Shown: positions 1,671 to 22,052, counted from the first letter of the stretch. The stretch is DNA of 24,448 nucleotides from Nitrospinota bacterium (GCA_016212295.1 JACRGO010000180.1:1-24448); one strand, 5' to 3'. Translations and numbers: made by a program. The notes: generated from the sequence alone by a model not told the origin.

Positions 1671-2069
1671 TCAAGAGATGTTCTTATTGGTCACTGGCAG
1701 GGAATCCATTTCCGGGTCCTTATGATAAAGGACGGCGTTGGCGCATAAGGCGGAGGCCGCTATCCAGGAGTCGCATGCGGAAAGCTTGCCGGGCTTGGCC
1801 TTTAATTCCGCCGCCTTGAGGAGGATTTCCTCGGAACAGGCGATTTCCTTGGCGTTAAAGTCATTTAAAAAGTCCAGAAGCTCCCGTCCCCAGGGTTTAT
1901 TTTCCCTTTGTGAGAGGTAGAGGAGTTCGTACCTGCTCATGAAGGAATAAAAGATTTCAACTGCCCGGCTTTCCGCCAGTTCCAGCAGGGAGTAGACTTG
2001 CTCATACCCCTTTTCTTCCTTCAGGAAAGCGCGTAAGGCAGAGGTGTCAAGGCAATACCGTTCACTCAT
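1671..2069 (-). CDS. PIN-domain ribonuclease (VapC-like) without a visible antitoxin
   Basis: A 132-residue PIN domain, typical VapC length. The acidic metal site is visible: Asp8 in 'YCLDTSALRAFL', Glu48 in 'SRYELLYL', Asp100 in 'ACDSWIAASAL' and Asp118 in 'HKDPEM'. PIN proteins of this type cut RNA, often tRNA or rRNA, with Mg2+ or Mn2+. Instead of following a small VapB-like antitoxin gene, it overlaps the end of the TPR gene: the preceding TGA lies inside ATGAGTGA at its start. The purine-rich end of the TPR gene (AGGGAAAGGG) acts as its ribosome binding site, so translation is probably coupled. This suggests control by the HD/NTPase and TPR proteins rather than by a canonical antitoxin, which is inference. 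Confidence 0.85.
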   Translation of the reverse strand: MSERYCLDTSALRAFLKEEKGYEQVYSLLELAESRAVEIFYSFMSRYELLYLSQRENKPWGRELLDFLNDFNAKEIACSEEILLKAAELKAKPGKLSACDSWIAASALCANAVLYHKDPEMDSLPVTNKNIS

Positions 2070-3432
2070 CCCTTTCCCTCTCTCTTTCCCGCTCCTTCAC
2101 CAAATTATCCAGGGCGTTGCTTCCCTTCAGGATTCCGCACATTACTTGCAGCCTTTGCCTGGGAGTCAGATTTTTATCCATCGGCCCGCCATGTTCAAGG
2201 AACCTGGCCCGGACGGCTTCCACTTTTTTTTGTTCCTCGCGGGCTTCCTGGATGAATCTTTTTATTCCTGCTTTATATTTTTCGTTCTTTTCGATTTTTA
2301 ACGATTTTTCGTAATACCCAATGGCCTCTTCGAACCTGCCCAATGCCGTGTGGATATGGCCCAGTTCATTATAGCACATGGTTTTTGATATTAAATCCTT
2401 ATGAGGCAATTGCTCAATGATTCTCAGACATTCCTCGATCTTTTCTTCCGCCTTGTGGTAAAGCTTTCTTTCCCTATAGAAGGCCGCCCAAGAGGTCAAG
2501 GCTTTTTTGCGGTGATCCGGGTTGGGATTCAGGTCAAAACTTTCCTGGTAAGCCCTTTCCGTTTCTTCCCATCTATCCGGATATTCCGCAAGAAGGTCTC
2601 CCAAGGCTCTAAGAACCTGGGCCTGATGCCCTTTATCGCCAATCTCTTTTCCAATTTCAATTGCTTTTAAATAGTACCTTTCAACTGTTTCTATTTCTTT
2701 ATGGTTTTTGGACAAAATCATGCCCGTTAAATGACTGGCGATGGCCACTCTTCGGTTTATCAGGCCAGAATCAGCTACAGGCCGCAGAAAGAAAAAGGCT
2801 TCCCTCTTCTTGTCCTGATGGTAGAGCCGCATTCCTTCATAATAGTAATAATTTTCCTTGTGATAGTCGTAAACAGCGTCCCATTTTTCGCACAACCTGA
2901 AAATGGAATAACTGGCTTGGTTCTTTGCTTCCTGACTTGGGAGATTGCCCTCAAGCCGGTCGAATTCCTCAAAACCTTTTTCACGGTCCACATTGGCCGT
3001 GTGGAATGCCTTGAGGAATTGAAAAGAAGGATTTTCCTCCCCTGTTATGGGGTCCTTTGATTCATTGCCGTAATACTTACTCAACGCCATGTCAATTTCT
3101 CTCAGAGTCCCGTTATGAGAATTTTTAATTTTCTCGAGAAAGAATTCCCGTGCGCCATCTGAAAATTCCCAGTCGCCTGTGCAGCGTTTGGATACAAAGG
3201 GAAGTGAGGTTACTTTTTCAAAGGCCCTTCCTGAATTTCCGTTCAAGCCCACAGGACCGGTGAGAATGGTCAGGGCCAAGGAGGCGTTGAATCGTAACGG
3301 CACCGCGCAGGCCATGACTCCCAGGCGGACCTTTTCCTCCATATCCCGCAATGCCTCTCCATAAATAAGCTCGTCCATGTCCTGGTCGAAGGCGCCGCTT
3401 TCCAATTGTTCCAGAATTTTCCTTGAGCTCAT
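2062..3432 (-). CDS. Winged-helix-like/TPR repeat protein, middle gene of HD-TPR-PIN operon
   Basis: A 456-residue protein. Residues about 30-125 ('VRLGVMACAVPLRFNASLAL' onward, then 'WEFSDGAREFFLEKI') resemble the winged-helix segment that follows the NTPase in STAND-type proteins. Residues about 220-375 form tetratricopeptide repeats, for example 'ALGDLLAEYPDRWEETERAY', 'AAFYRERKLYHKAEEKIEEC' and 'ELGHIHTALGRFEEAIGYYE'. The C terminus is a charged stretch ending in alternating Glu-Arg. The start overlaps the upstream HD gene by ATGA and the end overlaps the PIN gene, so the three are translationally coupled. Together, genes one and two look like a STAND-like sensor (NTPase, winged helix, TPR) split in two. 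The partner bound by the TPRs is unknown. Confidence 0.75.
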   Translation of the reverse strand: MSSRKILEQLESGAFDQDMDELIYGEALRDMEEKVRLGVMACAVPLRFNASLALTILTGPVGLNGNSGRAFEKVTSLPFVSKRCTGDWEFSDGAREFFLEKIKNSHNGTLREIDMALSKYYGNESKDPITGEENPSFQFLKAFHTANVDREKGFEEFDRLEGNLPSQEAKNQASYSIFRLCEKWDAVYDYHKENYYYYEGMRLYHQDKKREAFFFLRPVADSGLINRRVAIASHLTGMILSKNHKEIETVERYYLKAIEIGKEIGDKGHQAQVLRALGDLLAEYPDRWEETERAYQESFDLNPNPDHRKKALTSWAAFYRERKLYHKAEEKIEECLRIIEQLPHKDLISKTMCYNELGHIHTALGRFEEAIGYYEKSLKIEKNEKYKAGIKRFIQEAREEQKKVEAVRARFLEHGGPMDKNLTPRQRLQVMCGILKGSNALDNLVKERERERERDE

Positions 3433-4970
3433 TGTTTTAACAACTCCACTATTTCGTAAACCTTTTCCGGCTTGCCGGACGTACTATTGTATAATTTTGC
3501 CGCCAGATTTTCCAGGTTATGGCCGGTGGGGATTTTGGGGGACTCCAGGACCTCCCTGATTATTTCCTTTGTAAAATGCTTCATTCCTATAAATTGAACA
3601 TGGTTGAACATTTTCCGCAAGCCCGATTCTTCCGCCGCGGAGGACAAGAGGACCACCACCGCTTTTGTACTTTGAAGGGCCGTGGATTCAGACAACTCTT
3701 TCAAAAGATCGCCTTGGAGTTTCTGGTGCAAAATGTCTACATTCTCCACCACAATAACGGTCTTGGTTGAAGAGCCGGAATTCTTCAGAAATGAATCTGT
3801 TATTTTCAGCAAGAACTCCTGGGTGAAAGTGAAGGCTGATTCCGGCGTGAGAGATATGCTATGAAAGAAAATTTTGGGATGGGCGCGGGCCGCCTTTTCG
3901 AACCAACCGAAAAAAAGGTCCCTGTCATAAAGATCCACATTATAGTAATAAAATATCCCTCCCGGCGCGTCTGGCTCCAAAAGTTTTTGAAGCTGCGCCT
4001 TTTCCGCCTTCCGGTCGTACAAGTCCATCTCCGCGGTTTCACGTTCCAGGAGAGATATTTCATCCGGCGAAAACTCCTTCGGGTATTGAGCATCCGGCAG
4101 TACTGGGAAGTCAGTATCTCGCCTGATTTCCGGAGAAATAAAATAGCCCATTCTCCTTTGAAATATTTGCATGGTCAGGCTGAATTGTCCGGCCAGCTTA
4201 TCAAAGACCCATTTTGTTAACCTTTTCCTGAAACCTTCTTCTTCATTCTCCAGGAACTGGAAACAAACCGATATGATTATTTGGCGGGCATTTGAATCGA
4301 AATTATAATCCACATCGTAAATTCTTTGGTGTTTCTTTTGGTGCAGATTGGACATTGGACTGTAGTTCTTATTTGGGGCCATGTTCCCCCGTTCTTTCAG
4401 GTCCAGTTCGTCCGCCGCCATGAGGAGGGCCGTGAGAAAGGCCCCGTCCACCTTCCGGCTGAATACGGAATGCGGGTGTTCCTGAAACCGGTCAACCACC
4501 TCCTGGAAATGCTTCCCTGAATGCCCTTTGCACACCAGGGCCACACAGTTCAGAAGGTTGTAGTCCTGAATTTCCCCGTGCCCGTCCCGAAACCCGCATT
4601 CCAGCTTCTTGAGGAATATGCTTTCATCCACCATTCCGTCCTTGAGAATAATCCTATAGGAATACTCAGCGTGGGTCTCCCGGAGGATATCAGCCTTCCC
4701 TTCAGCGTCCTTCATGTTCTGCATGCCGATGTCGTGCAGCCATGCCGAGGCAAGAAGGACCAGTATTTCAGAGTCGTTGAGATTGAATTTTTCCCAATGC
4801 CCAAGGATATCATTAAGAATAGCTATTATTTTTCCTGAATGCCTTGGACCGTGTTCCGTGAAATCATGCAGGAGGGGTTCCTTCCATATATGTTCGGCTT
4901 TTCCCCTTATGCGTGAATAAATCTCAAACAGGGGCTGGTTTTCTTTAAGTTTTGCTTCCAGATCGATCAT
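3429..4970 (-). CDS. HD-domain protein fused to a degenerate P-loop NTPase-like domain
   Basis: About 513 residues. The N-terminal half is an HD phosphohydrolase-like domain related to the HD-CE type: His40/His44 in 'FTEHGPRHSGKI', the His79-Asp80 doublet in 'AWLHDIGM' and a later Asp in 'LLMAADELDL'. Such domains cleave phosphoesters, often nucleotides. Near residue 340, 'FYYYNVDLYDRDLFFGW' occupies the place of a Walker A loop but has no GK[ST]. Near 405, 'TVIVVENVDIL' looks like a Walker B strand. The NTPase therefore seems catalytically dead or highly diverged. ATG at 4970 is preferred; an in-frame TTG at 4997 is the alternative, and neither has a clear ribosome binding site. The stop overlaps the next start (ATGA). 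It is the first gene of the coupled HD-TPR-PIN operon. Confidence 0.72.
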   Translation of the reverse strand: MIDLEAKLKENQPLFEIYSRIRGKAEHIWKEPLLHDFTEHGPRHSGKIIAILNDILGHWEKFNLNDSEILVLLASAWLHDIGMQNMKDAEGKADILRETHAEYSYRIILKDGMVDESIFLKKLECGFRDGHGEIQDYNLLNCVALVCKGHSGKHFQEVVDRFQEHPHSVFSRKVDGAFLTALLMAADELDLKERGNMAPNKNYSPMSNLHQKKHQRIYDVDYNFDSNARQIIISVCFQFLENEEEGFRKRLTKWVFDKLAGQFSLTMQIFQRRMGYFISPEIRRDTDFPVLPDAQYPKEFSPDEISLLERETAEMDLYDRKAEKAQLQKLLEPDAPGGIFYYYNVDLYDRDLFFGWFEKAARAHPKIFFHSISLTPESAFTFTQEFLLKITDSFLKNSGSSTKTVIVVENVDILHQKLQGDLLKELSESTALQSTKAVVVLLSSAAEESGLRKMFNHVQFIGMKHFTKEIIREVLESPKIPTGHNLENLAAKLYNSTSGKPEKVYEIVELLKQ

Positions 4971-5049
4971 GGGGAAAAGTTTAACTGAATGGCGCAAGGA
5001 AAGTAAAGCATGGAAAGACCACGCTTGAAGGCGGAACTATTGCGCTCTT

Positions 5050-5718
5050 CTACCCCCCAATCATCCCCATGACTTCCTTCACCAGCTTCTCGATCCCGTC
5101 GGCCGCCTCGGAGATATTCTTGGCCAGCATGTAGGCCGGGGTGGTGACGATCCTGTTTTCCCGGTCCACAACGAATTCCCTTACCTGGCAATCAACATGC
5201 CTTGCGCCCATTGAATTTATGGCCTTGGCGGTGTCCGGGTCGTAACCGATGGTGACCTGTGGTTTCACAGGCCCTCCCTTGCAGATGGCGGCCAGCAAGG
5301 CGGGGGAAATGCATATCGCGCCCACCGGTTTTTTCGCGGCCAGGGTTTCGGACACAAGCCGCTTAACTCCAGGGTCTATTTCGCAATCGCCCCCCTTCAC
5401 CGCGAAGTCGCACAGATTTTTCGCTGCCCCGAAGCCGCCGGGCAGGATCAAGGCGTCTATGTCCTTTGCAGATACTTCTTTAATATTTTTGATGTTCCCC
5501 CTTGCGATCCTGGCGGACTCCACCAGCACGTTTCTCTTTTCTCCCTGCGCGATCTGTCCGGTAAGGTGGTTTATGACGTGCATCTGGTCCCTGTCCGGCG
5601 CCATGCAGAGGGCCTCTCCGCCATGTTTGCTTATTGCCCACAGGGTGATGACCGATTCATGTATCTCCGCGCCGTCGTACACGCCGCAGCCTGAAAGCAC
5701 TACTCCTATTTTTTTCAT
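5050..5718 (-). CDS. elbB: ElbB-like DJ-1/PfpI-superfamily glyoxalase
   Basis: A 222-residue protein matching the ElbB family (isoprenoid biosynthesis glyoxalase ElbB, formerly sigma cross-reacting protein 27A) in length and motifs: 'GVVLSGCGVYDGAEIHESV' at the N terminus with Glu21, 'LILPGGFGAAKNLCDFA' at about 90-106, and the nucleophile elbow 'GAICISPAL' with Cys136. ElbB has weak cofactor-independent glyoxalase III activity and a proposed link to isoprenoid metabolism; its in vivo role is unsettled. ATG at 5718 has a strong AGGAGGAG five bases upstream. The gene lies upstream of the HD-TPR-PIN operon on the same strand with a gap of about 80 bp; a functional link is not evident. Confidence 0.92.
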   Translation of the reverse strand: MKKIGVVLSGCGVYDGAEIHESVITLWAISKHGGEALCMAPDRDQMHVINHLTGQIAQGEKRNVLVESARIARGNIKNIKEVSAKDIDALILPGGFGAAKNLCDFAVKGGDCEIDPGVKRLVSETLAAKKPVGAICISPALLAAICKGGPVKPQVTIGYDPDTAKAINSMGARHVDCQVREFVVDRENRIVTTPAYMLAKNISEAADGIEKLVKEVMGMIGG

Positions 5719-5748
5719 AAGACTCCTCCTTAATAAATTCGCGAAACT

Positions 5749-5851
5749 ATTAACGGTCTCAAAATAGTATTGATATAACCCACCCCGGCGCTCCGCGCCA
5801 CCCCTCCAAGGAGGGGAATTTTTATGTGTATTCTATTTTGAGACGGTTAAT
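5749..5851. repeat. Palindromic repeat element with 22-bp terminal inverted repeats
   Basis: Inverted repeats at 5749-5770 and 5830-5851 match at 20 of 22 positions (core CTATTTTGAGAC). The interior holds two further hairpins: GGCGC-TCC-GCGCC (5787-5799) and CCCCTCC-AA-GGAGGGG (5801-5816), the latter followed by AATTTTTA. The nested fold between rlmI and elbB looks like a REP/MITE-type mobile palindrome. The inner hairpin plus T-run could end transcription on the plus strand, but no plus-strand gene precedes it. Confidence 0.65.
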
Positions 5852-5857
5852 ATGTTC

Positions 5858-7045
5858 TTACAACGCCTTGCAAATAAGGCCCTTTAAATATTGTCCCTCC
5901 GGAAATTGAAGGCCGATGGGGTGGTCGGCTGACTGGCCCAGATAGCGGATTATTCGGGCGTCGCGTCCGGCGTCCAGCGCGGCGTCAGCCACGACCTTCT
6001 GAAACAAGGCAGGTCCCACATGGCCGGAGCAGGAAAAAGTGAAGAGGACGCCGCCTGGTTTCAGCAGCTTAAAGGCAAGGAGATTAATGTCCTTGTATCC
6101 CCTGCACGCGCCGTCCACCTGGCTCCCGGATTCCGCGAACTTGGGTGGATCGAGTATTATCAGACCGAAGGAGCGGCCGGAATCGCGGAATTTTCGAAGG
6201 ATATTAAACGCGTCTCCGTCCAGGTTTTCGCACATGCCTGGCTCCATGCGGTTCAACTCCATATTCCTCAGCGCCAGTTCAAGCGCCTCGGATGAGGCGT
6301 CAATGTTCGTAAGGCTTCCGGCCCCGCCCTTTAAGGCCATGAGTCCGAACCCGCCGCTATACGAGAAGCAGTTAAGGACATCAGCCCCTTCGGAAAACTC
6401 CGGGACCATGGCCCGGTTTTCCCGCTGGTCCAGATAAAATCCTGTCTTATGCCCGCGCCGGACATCCACCAGGAGCCCAATAGGGCCTTCATTGATTTCC
6501 ACAAGATCCGGCGGCTCTTGTCCGGCGATAAGTCCAACTGCCTGCGCCAGCCCTTCCTTCTCGCGCGAGGATGAGTCGGAACGCTCGTAAATTCCGGTTG
6601 ACGGCGCAAGCCCTTCCAGGCTCTTAACTATTTCCTTTTTCCAATATTCAGTTCCGGCGGACAGGAACTGGCAGACCAGGAAATCCGCGTACCGGTCCAC
6701 TATCAATCCAGGCAGGCCGTCTGATTCCGCGTTCACGAGCCGAAGCGCGGCGGTCGGCTTCTTGAAATCCATGTAGTCCCTGGCCTTGATGGACCTTTCT
6801 ATCCTATTGCTAAAGAAAGAGGGTCCGGCTTCCTCATCCTTGTTGAAGGTCCAGACCCGGACCCGGATTTGGGAGACAGGGGAATACGCGCCGGAAGCCA
6901 GCCATTTGCCGTCAGGTCCAAGGACGTCAACGGTCTCCCCGCTGCCGGGATTTCCCTTGACGTCCTTGACCGCGCCGGAAAAAATCCATGGATGGCGTCT
7001 GCGAATAGACCCATCCCGGTTGGGTTTTATAATAACGGAAGACAT
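5858..7045 (-). CDS. rlmI: RlmI-like 23S rRNA (cytosine-C5) methyltransferase
   Basis: About 395 residues, the usual length for the RlmI/YccW family, which methylates 23S rRNA C1962 (E. coli numbering) using S-adenosylmethionine. The N-terminal PUA-type RNA-binding segment has 'RRHPWIFSGAV' and 'GKWLASGAYSP'. The catalytic part has 'GHKTGFYLDQRENR', SAM motif I 'VLNCFSYSGGFGL', motif IV 'LIILDPPKF' and the catalytic Cys in 'FTFSCSG'. ATG at 7045 is chosen over an in-frame TTG nine bases upstream because family proteins start just before 'IIKPNRDGS'; neither has a clear Shine-Dalgarno. Paralogues of this family exist, so the exact rRNA target is inferred. It sits where the next V/A-ATPase subunit genes would be expected. 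Confidence 0.87.
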   Translation of the reverse strand: MSSVIIKPNRDGSIRRRHPWIFSGAVKDVKGNPGSGETVDVLGPDGKWLASGAYSPVSQIRVRVWTFNKDEEAGPSFFSNRIERSIKARDYMDFKKPTAALRLVNAESDGLPGLIVDRYADFLVCQFLSAGTEYWKKEIVKSLEGLAPSTGIYERSDSSSREKEGLAQAVGLIAGQEPPDLVEINEGPIGLLVDVRRGHKTGFYLDQRENRAMVPEFSEGADVLNCFSYSGGFGLMALKGGAGSLTNIDASSEALELALRNMELNRMEPGMCENLDGDAFNILRKFRDSGRSFGLIILDPPKFAESGSQVDGACRGYKDINLLAFKLLKPGGVLFTFSCSGHVGPALFQKVVADAALDAGRDARIIRYLGQSADHPIGLQFPEGQYLKGLICKAL

Positions 7046-11021: not shown

Positions 11022-11942
11022 TTATAAATCCAAGGACTCGTCCAATTCAATATTCTTGAATTCAAGGAAATCCTTCATCTCTTCTTGCTCCTTCTCCGAG
11101 ACTTCCCTGCCTTCAAGCCTTGCCCGTATCTTTGTCTTGTGAAGCGCTATGCGGGTGATACGCTCAATATTATAAACATTTTCATCAAGATTTTCCTTGG
11201 CTTTTTTCTCGTTTTGAATAAAGCGGGAAATTCCCTCCACCAGACTTTTTGAAACGCCCTCAAACCGGATTCCGCATTTATAGGGAAATTCCTGGTCCTT
11301 GAGGTCGGTCAACTGCATGACAACCGCCTTGGTGTCCATGGGGCTTACATCCGGGAACTCAATTTCAACCTTTATACTTGTCTCCGGCTCAAGCTTGTTG
11401 TTGGCGGTCAAAAAGGACAACCCGTCCACGGAAATATCCGACGCCACGGCGACCTCCGTGCCAAGGATTTTCGTTGTAACGGGAAATTCCAGCTTCACGA
11501 AAACCGGCGGATCATCCGGGGTCAGGAAAAATCGTTCAGCGGTCCGGAATTGATGGCGAAGCACCTCCGCTGGATAAGCAATTGTCACGGTTGAAAATCT
11601 CTCCTCCCCCATTGCCAGGAATCTTGATTGAAAAGTATAGGGATCGCCCCCAAGGTGGAAACTGATTTCAAGGAATTCGGAAGTTTCCAAGGCGCGCCTG
11701 CCGTGCTCTTCCGGCATTACAGTATCTATTACCAGGGCAGGCAGGCCTTCAAAATTATCCTTCCTGATGATTCTATCGGAATAAAATTTCTGCACCCGGA
11801 TATCGATGGCGATTTCCAGGGAGCTTCCTTCCCTTATAGCTTCCTGCATGATCGAAGCGATCTTTTCGGAGGTCTTGAATTTCAAGGGAGGAATGGCGTT
11901 CTTTGATTTCGCTATTTTCCTGGCCGTTTCGATGATTCCCAT
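11022..11942 (-). CDS. PilZ-domain c-di-GMP-binding protein (YcgR-like)
   Basis: A 306-residue cytoplasmic protein. Residues about 35-125 form a beta-rich YcgR-N-like domain. The PilZ domain follows (about 126-235) with both c-di-GMP signatures intact: RxxxR at Arg129/Arg133 in 'LRHQFRTAER' and D/NxSxxG at Asp169-Gly174 in 'ASDISVDGLSF'. A charged helical tail (about 235-306) follows. YcgR-type proteins act on flagellar motors or other surface machinery when c-di-GMP rises; no flagellar gene is nearby, so the target is unknown. Its ATG overlaps the cyclase stop as TAATG, strongly suggesting coupled translation and a joint role in c-di-GMP and cAMP signalling. Confidence 0.87.
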   Translation of the reverse strand: MGIIETARKIAKSKNAIPPLKFKTSEKIASIMQEAIREGSSLEIAIDIRVQKFYSDRIIRKDNFEGLPALVIDTVMPEEHGRRALETSEFLEISFHLGGDPYTFQSRFLAMGEERFSTVTIAYPAEVLRHQFRTAERFFLTPDDPPVFVKLEFPVTTKILGTEVAVASDISVDGLSFLTANNKLEPETSIKVEIEFPDVSPMDTKAVVMQLTDLKDQEFPYKCGIRFEGVSKSLVEGISRFIQNEKKAKENLDENVYNIERITRIALHKTKIRARLEGREVSEKEQEEMKDFLEFKNIELDESLDL

Positions 11943-13996
11943 TACTTATTCAACTCCGGTATGGTCCCCACGCTTTCCTCAATGGTTTGGCGCACTGTCT
12001 TAAGCAGGGAGTAGTACTGGTGGCCCTTAGGGGCGAAGATCCTCGCATGCTCCGGCAGTTCAGCCTTGTCGCTGAGTCCCAATTCCCCGATGCAGCGGCA
12101 TAAAGCGTTCATTCCCGCTTCTGGATTGGAATGGTTTTCGTAAAACATCTCCCCCCAAGAGGTCAGGTAAAACAACGCCACGGATTCGACGTCCCATTTG
12201 CCTCTGTCGCTGAAAAAGTTTATAACCGCGAAAATGTATTTTTTCCTGGCCTCTGACACAAGGTCCTCGTTCTTCAGAGTGGCTATTTTAAAGCCCGGGA
12301 AAAATTCGTGTATTTCCCTGATCAGCCTCTGGATGTCCGCAAGGACCACATTGGTGGGGTTAGGCGTGAGGTAGAGTCTTGTTTTCAGGTCGCAGATTTT
12401 ATTGAAAACCATCCATACAATAATGAAAACGAGATCATAATTCACCACCAACAGCTTGTTTCCAACATCCTTTTTTTCGATGTCGATTCGCGCTAGCTGG
12501 TCCCGGTAAAGGTTCCAAACGGTTTTACGCGCCTTGTCCAGTGAGGCATGAAACGTCAGGTCGTCCTGAAGAAGCCCATCTTCAAACGCCTTGCGAAGAT
12601 TAACCAGCTTATTCGGCTTATTTGAATAAAAGGCAAAGAGTTTTCGTCCGAGAATGGTCAGATCGGTCTGCGTTATTATATGCCCGCCGAACGATTCCTC
12701 CTTCAGCCGGTCGGCCAGGCTCTGATAAGTTTTAATCATGTAGCCATGCACATCGGCCCCAAGACGCAAGACCTTTTTCACGTCCCATTCCTTGTAGGAA
12801 TTGAGGTCGCTTAATTTCTCCTGGTCCCAGCCCCAGTTTTTAACGTAATCAAGCACGGCCTTCTCCTTGAAGCCCATTTCCTCCTTATCGGGCATATCAA
12901 GACTCGCCTTCACGCCGGTTTTTACATAAAAGCATTTGCACAAGAGGTCGAGCACTTTTTTGTTCCCCACGCCCTGGTAATATTTAAGAATGTGGCCAAA
13001 CATCATCATGTAGGGATCAAGGGAAAGATTTTTCCCGCCGGACCCAAGTATCCCTTTTTTCATTTCCGTGCATAGCAGGGCCGGTTTGCCCTTGGCGCGA
13101 ATGTATCCCTCCAGCATTCCCATCTTCAGGACGGATTTGAAGGGAGAATCCATTGCCTTGTTCATTTGCCAGAGGGCGGCGCCGAAGAATTCCTCATAGG
13201 AGATTTCATAAAGGTTTCCAAGGTTGACGAAATTATCCTCGCCCAGGCCCTCACTGGCCGGGACTAAATTTTTTAATTCCTCGTACTCTTTATCGTCGAT
13301 CCCCGGCGGCATGATCCACCAAACCGGTATCTTACCCATTACAAGGATCATTGTCCTGTAGAACTCCTCCTTAAGGAGCTTGGCCTGGGACGAGCCCGCG
13401 CTCTCCTTGCCGGCCTCTCCGAAAATATTGTCCCTGACCTTTTTAATATCAGTTGGAAAAAAATGCGTTTCCACCTCATGCTCTTTCTCCGCCCATTCCT
13501 CTATCAGGGCCAATTTTTTTTCAAACCGGTCCATCCAGCAGGGTTTGAAATGCTCCTCGTGGACGCAGACCCAGAAGTCGAAATCAGAGCTTTTTGTCTG
13601 GGCGATGCTTCCAATACTCCCCATAAGAAGGAGCGAGCGGATGAAGTTATGCCTGGGCGTGAAGGCTTGCGGGTTGTCAATGACTTTTTTGGCATTGGGG
13701 AAGAGGACAATGAGGGCATTGTACGCCTCCGGGGCCAATTCAAACAGCTTTATGCCGGACGGGGTGGCGGGATTATCCACGTAACCTGGAAAATCCGGGT
13801 GGTTGACATGAAGCAGAAAGGGCAGGACGCGAAAGACCAGGGCGGTCCTCCTGGGCATGAATTCAAAGGCCCTTTGCAGCCGGTATTGATTATACTTAAG
13901 GAATATTTCCTTGTTCCTTGCAAGGGTCTCAAGGGCGTCCTCCTTAAGCTGGGCCGAAGTGAATAGCGCTTTTTTCAATAACTGAAATTTTGCCAT
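11942..13996 (-). CDS. cyaA: Class I adenylate cyclase (CyaA-like), short form
   Basis: About 684 residues converting ATP to cAMP. The nucleotidyltransferase motif is clear: 'LMGSIGSIAQTKSSDFDFWV' with Gly126-Ser127 and the metal-binding Asp138/Asp140, as in enterobacterial CyaA. Further on, 'EFFGAALWQMNKAMDSPFKS' and 'VLKMGMLEGYI' match the class I signature. E. coli CyaA is 848 residues; the shorter length suggests the C-terminal glucose/EIIA-regulated domain is reduced or absent, so control is probably different. ATG at 13996 is chosen: an in-frame TTG at 14068 would add 24 residues encoded by a duplicated repeat and GC-rich insert. It ends in TAATG with the PilZ gene. No CRP-like receptor is in the window. 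Confidence 0.9.
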   Translation of the reverse strand: MAKFQLLKKALFTSAQLKEDALETLARNKEIFLKYNQYRLQRAFEFMPRRTALVFRVLPFLLHVNHPDFPGYVDNPATPSGIKLFELAPEAYNALIVLFPNAKKVIDNPQAFTPRHNFIRSLLLMGSIGSIAQTKSSDFDFWVCVHEEHFKPCWMDRFEKKLALIEEWAEKEHEVETHFFPTDIKKVRDNIFGEAGKESAGSSQAKLLKEEFYRTMILVMGKIPVWWIMPPGIDDKEYEELKNLVPASEGLGEDNFVNLGNLYEISYEEFFGAALWQMNKAMDSPFKSVLKMGMLEGYIRAKGKPALLCTEMKKGILGSGGKNLSLDPYMMMFGHILKYYQGVGNKKVLDLLCKCFYVKTGVKASLDMPDKEEMGFKEKAVLDYVKNWGWDQEKLSDLNSYKEWDVKKVLRLGADVHGYMIKTYQSLADRLKEESFGGHIITQTDLTILGRKLFAFYSNKPNKLVNLRKAFEDGLLQDDLTFHASLDKARKTVWNLYRDQLARIDIEKKDVGNKLLVVNYDLVFIIVWMVFNKICDLKTRLYLTPNPTNVVLADIQRLIREIHEFFPGFKIATLKNEDLVSEARKKYIFAVINFFSDRGKWDVESVALFYLTSWGEMFYENHSNPEAGMNALCRCIGELGLSDKAELPEHARIFAPKGHQYYSLLKTVRQTIEESVGTIPELNK

Positions 13997-14090
13997 GCCG
14001 CGTTCCAGGAAACGGTTGAAAAACTTGCGCCTGTCCGCGTGCGACGCACAGGCAGACGGAAAGCGCAAATTTTTGAACGTAATAATATAA
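13994..14090. repeat. Direct repeat copy 1, covering the cyaA start
   Basis: Bases 13994-14029 and 14058-14090 match the second copy at 14193-14261 in the same orientation (shared blocks include TCCAGGAAACG, TTGAAAAA and ACGTAATAATATAA). Copy 1 is interrupted at about 14030-14057 by a GC-rich insert containing the palindrome GTGCGACGCAC. Its left end is the cyaA start codon. Confidence 0.7.
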
Positions 14091-21554: not shown

Positions 21555-21606
21555 TGGTCAGGAAAAAAGAGTCAGTGGTCATTGTGTCAGTGGTCATTAG
21601 TCATTG
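21542..21606. repeat. Heptad array B, left arm (TCATTGG type)
   Basis: Units of TCATTGG, TCAGTGG and TCATTAG, partly broken by AGGAAAAAAGAG. It overlaps the last codons of the S23 gene (residues PMTNDH) and the start region of hybrid kinase copy 2. It is the inverse of the arm at 21977-22052 on the other side of the S23 gene. Confidence 0.78.
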
Positions 21607-21967
21607 GGACGTTTTTTTGTGGGCCGATTGAACGGATATAGTTGTTCAGCTTCTTATGCAAAATCTCCAGAGACTCATTAAGAGAGTCATATTCCTCTTG
21701 GGAAATCATGTTCCTGTTCTTTGATTTTTCAAGCCAGGTTTTTGTTTCCATCAAAGAGCCTCTTGCATAATAACAAAAGTGTTTATTTTCTTGGTAATGA
21801 AATCTTCCATACCCTTCGGAAATATTTGCCGCGATGGAATCAGCTGACCGGACCAATTGATCTCCCACGGTTTTTTTAAAAAAGTAATCCCATTGGGCTG
21901 CTATTTCCCATATTTTTTCTCCGATTGACATGGCAAGATTGTATACTTCCAATCCCTCCAGCTTCAT
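21587..21967 (-). CDS. Four-helix-bundle protein (S23 / 23S rRNA intervening-sequence family)
   Basis: About 126 residues. It has the S23/IVP signature: N-terminal 'LEVYNLAMSIGEKIWEIAA', then 'VGDQLVRSADSIAANISEGY' and 'FCYYARGSLMETKTWLEKS', followed by a final helix 'LEILHKKLNNYIRSI'. Family members include proteins encoded in 23S rRNA intervening sequences and the Avd accessory protein of diversity-generating retroelements; they form pentameric helical bundles and bind nucleic acid in the Avd case. Here it is neither in an rRNA gene nor beside a reverse transcriptase. ATG at 21967 with GGAGAGAAGG just upstream is chosen over the in-frame TTG at 21988. The last residues (PMTNDH) are encoded by the flanking heptad array, so the gene is embedded within it. 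Confidence 0.88.
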   Translation of the reverse strand: MKLEGLEVYNLAMSIGEKIWEIAAQWDYFFKKTVGDQLVRSADSIAANISEGYGRFHYQENKHFCYYARGSLMETKTWLEKSKNRNMISQEEYDSLNESLEILHKKLNNYIRSIGPQKNVPMTNDH

Positions 21968-21976
21968 CCCTTCTCT

Positions 21977-22052
21977 CCCACTGACCAATGACTATTGACC
22001 CAATGACCAATGACCAATGACCTAATGACCCAATGACCCAATGACCAATGAC
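21977..22052. repeat. Heptad array B, right arm (CCAATGA type)
   Basis: About ten consecutive 7-base units, mostly TGACCAA, TGACCCA and TGACCTA. They are in inverse orientation to the arm at 21542-21606, so the S23 gene is bracketed by inverted arrays. The array ends a few bases before the stop codon of the GAF/HisKA_2 kinase gene. Confidence 0.82.

Follow-up and report, generated by a model that had tools for sequence, protein, structure and literature searches.

The DNA analyzed here (the window) is a 24,448-nucleotide stretch from a Nitrospinota bacterium (GCA_016212295.1, JACRGO010000180.1:1-24448). ORF calls show that three overlapping genes at positions 1671-4970 are real; they lie on the minus strand, as do all features described below. 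Gene 1 (3429..4970; 513 amino acids) encodes an HD-CE domain followed by a P-loop-less C-terminal region with a putative AAA+/STAND-like fold, gene 2 (2062..3432; 456 amino acids) encodes a TPR protein with a predicted C-terminal VapB-type tail, and gene 3 (1671..2069; 132 amino acids) encodes a VapC-like PIN nuclease. Genes 1 and 2 overlap by ATGA (3429..3432). Genes 2 and 3 overlap by the 8 bases ATGAGTGA (2062..2069), which contain the start of the PIN gene and the stop of the TPR gene. Both overlaps had been reported in a first-pass annotation of this DNA and are seen again here, and the second resembles the VapB/VapC overlaps in the relatives of gene 3. A promoter and terminator scan gave nothing exceeding shuffles.

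The HD-CE domain of gene 1 (Pfam: PF24391) spans amino acids 35-231 by Pfam (4278..4868) and scores 82.4 bits (E-value 5.5e-23; gathering cut-off 27). Residues H44, H79, D80, H100, H150, and D187 are invariant in ten homologues (alignment A5), and the predicted binuclear-type HD metal ligands of gene 1 are intact. The domain is predicted to fold much like its PPX/GppA counterpart (Z 13.7), with less likeness to the PDE family. The HD phosphohydrolase-like domain claimed for gene 1 is thus borne out by the Pfam match, the retained ligands, and the predicted fold. The HD-CE domain is likely to be an enzyme.

The remainder of gene 1 had been described as an NTPase-like region that lacks Walker A and keeps a Walker B-like strand, and our analysis agrees. 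This region (amino acids 302-513; 3432..4067), the remaining 210 residues of the protein, alternates between strands and helices, and its AlphaFold2 (AF2) model has a pLDDT of about 35-65. A P-loop scan finds no [AG]xxxxGK[ST] in the C-terminal half of gene 1 and no GxxxxGK[ST] in gene 2, while the strand TVIVVEN at amino acids 403-409 of gene 1 is Walker B-like. The AF2 model of amino acids 317-461 matches the D1 domain of Cdc48, an AAA+ protein (Z 9.6, 3.5 Å, 124 residues); it also matches the AAA+ proteins ORC/Cdc6 and p97. Amino acids 396-512 match the NCBIfam family of the DNA polymerase III delta' subunit (4.9e-5). With moderate confidence, we assign to this region a predicted AAA+/STAND-like fold. 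A profile comparison that set intact HD-CE-NB-ARC proteins against the gene 1 C-terminus and the gene 2 N-terminus is not significant, so we do not claim descent from that group.

Gene 2 was originally read as a winged helix followed by TPRs. The TPR part stands: a solenoid at about amino acids 244-400 (2233..2703) matches TPR_12 (2.7e-16) and is modeled with confidence by AF2 (pLDDT 75-92). Such superstructure-forming repeats are what STAND NTPases carry at the C-terminus. The winged helix is unconfirmed, as amino acids 1-132 have pLDDT below 50 in the AF2 model and no Pfam match. The Pfam scan of gene 2 returns TPR only, with no AbrB, RHH, HTH, or other DNA-binding domain.

Gene 3 matches the PIN family (PF01850, 6.3e-13), and an alignment with VapC homologues (alignment A4) shows that the catalytic acidic residues D8, E48, D100, and D118 are all kept, as had been noticed for this PIN nuclease at the outset. 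In Nitrospinota, the PIN proteins most closely related to it are VapC toxins, encoded immediately downstream of a short VapB. Among close VapC relatives, the upstream partner, where found, is nearly always a short VapB of the AbrB type or otherwise of DNA-binding type with the same tail motif, encoded by a gene that abuts or overlaps the toxin gene. In the window, the TPR gene holds that place, and it is the only case, among the VapC relatives scanned, of a long TPR protein as the tail-bearing partner. A further search, made in another class, yielded only two genomes with VapC relatives.

The end of gene 2 (VMCGILKGSNALDNLVKERERERERDE from amino acid 430) resembles the VapB tails of the closest Nitrospinota relatives of the PIN protein, e.g., CGILPSKPSLSERLLKERRGEF and FRGKGKGSYTTKNLIRDRAEERK. 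From other genomes with VapC loci like gene 3, we collected VapB tails and built an HMM from 35 genuine ones, excluding the window sequence. The HMM scores 23.7 bits against the whole of gene 2 (E-value 1.6e-6 in 1,061 proteins), the next non-VapB protein scoring 8.6. The isolated C-terminal 37-mer of gene 2 scores 28.6 bits, which falls inside the range of 12-47 bits obtained by genuine tails when each is left out in turn. None of 20,000 shuffles of this 37-mer exceeds 15.5 bits. We also scored the C-terminal 37-mers of every six-frame ORF in the collected loci, 10,855 distinct sequences in total. Apart from gene 2, those with at least 18 bits all belong to VapBs encoded next to a VapC, and the highest-scoring unrelated sequence has 12.9. 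The last 11 residues of gene 2 form the run KERERERERDE, which supplies part of the score; the suspicion that the match is a compositional artefact of this R/E-rich C-terminus, gene 3 then being an unrelated solitary PIN, is nevertheless scarcely credible, because 37-mers in which the run is left in place and the 26 residues before it are shuffled score 3.2 bits on average and 14.2 at most, so that the match is not due to the run alone, and because neither the full shuffles nor the unrelated real C-termini come near the observed score.

Gly, Leu, and Arg are also retained at the conserved positions of the gene 2 tail, with R448 as the conserved Arg. We conclude on these sequence grounds that the C-terminal 26 residues of gene 2 (amino acids 431-456; 2065..2142) are a VapB-type toxin-binding tail. 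The initial view that the PIN gene has no VapB-like partner must therefore be abandoned: the partner is the C-terminal tail of the preceding gene. Since gene 2 ends in a VapB toxin-binding peptide, it is probably the TPR protein itself that acts as antitoxin to gene 3, which is the simplest reading. In the VapBC complex of Shigella, and likewise in FitAB, the antitoxin tail places an arginine in the active site of the PIN domain, in the position of a metal ion (PMC3384007); by analogy, the equivalent metal-displacing arginine in gene 2 is probably R448.

Are similar genes found together elsewhere? Three other genomes (Candidatus Electronema, Agromyces, and another genome of the Agromyces family) have a P-loop-less HD-CE gene (514-533 amino acids) with a TPR-type gene immediately after it. 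None of these three split pairs has an adjoining PIN gene or a VapB-like tail. Beyond the HD-CE domain, the pairs have diverged strongly in sequence. Gene 2 of the window matches its Electronema counterpart weakly (8.7e-5), and the two Agromyces-family pairs resemble each other. In a leave-one-out profile search with the gene 1 C-termini, Agromyces (1.2e-7) and its relative (2.2e-4) are significant, while the window (0.67) and Electronema (30) are not; across the split pairs, such searches are not significant with the window or Electronema as target. For this reason, the window is grouped with the others by architecture, HD-CE similarity, and the Electronema gene 2 match, and not by the C-terminal halves. 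The four split pairs appear to represent one architecture, likely by common descent.

The HD-CE/TPR split pair is rare. Three of 100 relatives have a match to gene 1, and one further pair came to light when sets of 257 and 378 genomes surrounding the other carriers were searched. The complete three-gene set was found in no second genome of the searched sets and is known from one metagenome-assembled genome (MAG) only. The three-gene synteny that had been predicted therefore holds for genes 1 and 2, as an organization seen in three other genomes, and fails for gene 3. Neither gene 1 nor gene 3 has a relative in plasmid and phage records, which contain a single, TPR-only match to gene 2. Viral contigs contain no relative of gene 1 or the PIN gene; the gene 1 profile picks out one distant HD protein among phage genes.

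The surroundings of the operon are ordinary housekeeping ones, with no defence island. A domain scan of the window shows elbB-like, rRNA methyltransferase-like, transporter, and signalling genes as neighbours, and neither gene 1 nor gene 3 is covered by a PADLOC model. Both observations would suit a housekeeping or stress regulator, e.g., of nucleotide or RNA turnover, with no part in conflict. We regard this as distinctly improbable, as several features fit a mobile conflict module better: the distribution is sporadic, the operon is absent from the genus-mate genome that we searched, and a GmrSD_N-type gene neighbours the Agromyces pair. The GC content of genes 1 and 2 (0.46-0.47; 0.51 for gene 3) is also below that of the nearby hlyD, elbB-like, and methyltransferase genes (0.54-0.57). 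The elbB neighbourhood of the genus-mate is not syntenic with that of the window, and hence there is no clean insertion site for the operon.

Taking these results together, we consider it fairly probable that a sensor formed by genes 1 and 2 captured a vapBC toxin, with gene 2 serving as its antitoxin. Genes 1 and 2 would form a two-subunit sensor of the conflict type, in which a protein with HD-CE and P-loop-less AAA+/STAND-like parts acts with a translationally coupled TPR protein. In this lineage, the pair would have captured a vapBC module and kept the VapC (PIN) toxin but, of the antitoxin, only the toxin-binding tail, with which the TPR protein would now end. At rest, we infer, the tail would lie across the PIN active site, where an arginine (probably R448) would displace the catalytic metal in the way known from VapBC complexes. 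When a trigger, which might be a phage product, a nucleic acid, or a stress signal, meets the TPR/pseudo-NTPase pair, the tail would be pulled off or degraded, and the freed PIN nuclease would cut RNA and halt translation. The HD-CE domain might add a second, metal-dependent phosphohydrolase activity, either as a co-effector or in processing a nucleotide signal, and the operon as a whole may have an antiphage function.

A more specific form of this idea is that the HD-CE/pseudo-STAND and TPR sensor has replaced the DNA-binding half of VapB, so that ligand sensing, and not antitoxin turnover, gates the release of VapC. We put it forward tentatively, as a close call that leans slightly towards its being wrong. 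The conflict or regulatory module with a PIN effector that had been proposed for this operon is still the best reading and its domain calls hold, with three amendments: the PIN protein has a VapB-like partner, HD-CE is itself a likely enzyme and may be a second effector, and the synteny extends to genes 1 and 2 but not to gene 3. Our literature search, which covered little of the subscription literature, found no paper on HD-CE and none on a TPR/STAND protein with a VapB tail, which is weak evidence of novelty.

The tail could also be a chance remnant of a recombination event that fused the 3' end of a vapB gene onto a TPR gene. It would then neutralize VapC while the TPR/HD-CE pair senses nothing on behalf of VapC, and the operon would in effect contain an orphan VapBC with an odd antitoxin. 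The fusion is seen in one genome only, and gene 1+2-like pairs elsewhere work without a PIN gene. In addition, the GC3 of the PIN gene (0.64) is like that of host genes, while those of genes 1 and 2 are 0.56 and 0.52, so the parts may differ in origin. On the other hand, every reading frame, both overlaps, and the catalytic residues are preserved, continued use is suggested by the Gly, Leu, and Arg that the tail conserves, and a 456-amino-acid antitoxin with an idle sensor part would be an unusual burden. We judge a chance remnant to be unlikely, with some real chance of being right.

A different division of labor would make HD-CE the true effector of genes 1 and 2 and the PIN nuclease a guard, active only once an invader destroys gene 2. 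HD-CE domains also occur in single chains with an intact P-loop, NB-ARC, and TPR, such as a 1109-amino-acid protein, and the same combination is found as a split pair. The window's own genome encodes a second HD-CE protein, of 1669 amino acids and with the architecture HD-CE-AAA16-WD40, as well as a CARF(Cas_APE2256)-HD-CE protein adjoining a type III CRISPR locus. The HD-CE-STAND-TPR/WD40 proteins share with genes 1 and 2 the order of parts, i.e., an N-terminal HD-CE, then a region of nucleotide-binding type, and the repeat sensor last; they differ in that gene 1 lacks the P-loop and the sensor lies in a separate, coupled gene, gene 2. Unlike the window, none of the intact HD-CE-STAND proteins examined has a VapB tail or a PIN gene. 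The N-terminal effector position in the intact proteins, both HD-CE-NB-ARC-TPR and HD-CE-STAND-WD40, and the place behind CARF beside a type III CRISPR locus suggest that HD-CE is possibly a second effector alongside PIN, and the pair is complete without a PIN gene in three other genomes. However, no substrate of HD-CE is known, and signal processing is equally possible. That HD-CE is the true effector and PIN a guard we hold to be doubtful, though with a sizeable chance of being correct.

What triggers chromosomal VapC toxins has long been asked, and the usual answer is protease-driven turnover of the antitoxin. If the capture of a vapBC toxin by the sensor pair is true, a VapB tail grafted on a TPR sensor would allow VapC release to be linked to a defined sensor, with the tail-less sensor pairs of the other genomes as natural controls. 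The operon also ties HD-CE, an uncharacterized domain of conflict systems, to a set of three small genes that can be tested as a module.

The proposed arrangement can be compared with several known systems. In PARIS, a sensor sequesters an RNA-cleaving toxin and frees it upon sensing a phage protein (PMC11455837). This mechanism is like the sensor-held toxin proposed for the window, but there is no homology: PARIS (AriA-AriB) combines an ABC ATPase with a Toprim nuclease, domains that our Pfam and PADLOC scans did not find, while the window combines a TPR/pseudo-NTPase pair with PIN. It has been suggested that inactive STAND modules serve conflict systems as receptors for nucleic acids (PMC8195603). 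The iSTAND/iSTAND2 ternary systems (Kaur 2020, PMC7159879; 2021, PMC8195603) share with the window a catalytically inactive STAND-like module proposed as a receptor for invaders, and nuclease effectors including PIN are known there; HD-CE and a VapB tail are not among the features described in the portions consulted. Nor does the window have the MoxR AAA+ or vWA partner of these systems among its scanned neighbouring genes. The TPR-GreA/B-C-PIN conflict systems (PMC8195603) likewise combine TPR with PIN and have a variable effector, but in one polypeptide with a GreA/B-C domain, whereas the window has a separate PIN gene and a VapB tail. VapBC with an AbrB-type VapB shares with the window a PIN toxin with four acidic residues and an upstream overlapping or abutting gene that ends in a VapB toxin-binding tail. 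The window differs in that its antitoxin candidate is a 456-amino-acid TPR protein with no DNA-binding domain detected and is co-encoded with an HD-CE/pseudo-NTPase gene.

Beyond the HD-CE operon, the window carries a PilZ-domain gene overlapped by a class I adenylate cyclase gene (11022-14068), and a solitary gene for a protein of the 23S rRNA-intervening-sequence (IVP) family (21587-21988) with histidine kinase genes on either side.

The pair formed by a P-loop-less HD-CE gene and its coupled TPR gene is present in the Agromyces family. In the Agromyces locus itself (L061), a GmrSD_N (DUF262) gene (4946-6031) lies immediately upstream of the pair. At the locus from another genome of this family (L194, 2260-7864), pieces of an apparent helicase gene, with partly repeated sequence, flank the pair, which is encoded on the opposite strand; this arrangement suggests that the pair arrived by insertion.

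HD-CE also occurs in other gene contexts. In two unrelated genomes, an HD-CE gene adjoins a gene for a P-loop ATPase (L013, 3-2262; L015, 1-2181; motifs GPAGLGKST and GPPGIGKTS), and these neighbors might constitute a two-gene HD-CE/ATPase system. An ANME-1 locus (L062, 3248-6037) encodes a single protein in which a putative GHKL (HSP90-type) ATPase region follows HD-CE. The window's own genome encodes a 1669 amino acid protein (L044, contig C29, 5733-10742) that combines HD-CE, an AAA_16/STAND part with an intact P-loop, and WD40 repeats. On contig C195 of the same genome (L046, 11731-13218), a CARF (Cas_APE2256) domain precedes a partial HD-CE match, and type III CRISPR RAMP genes adjoin this gene; here HD-CE may be an effector under cyclic-oligonucleotide control.
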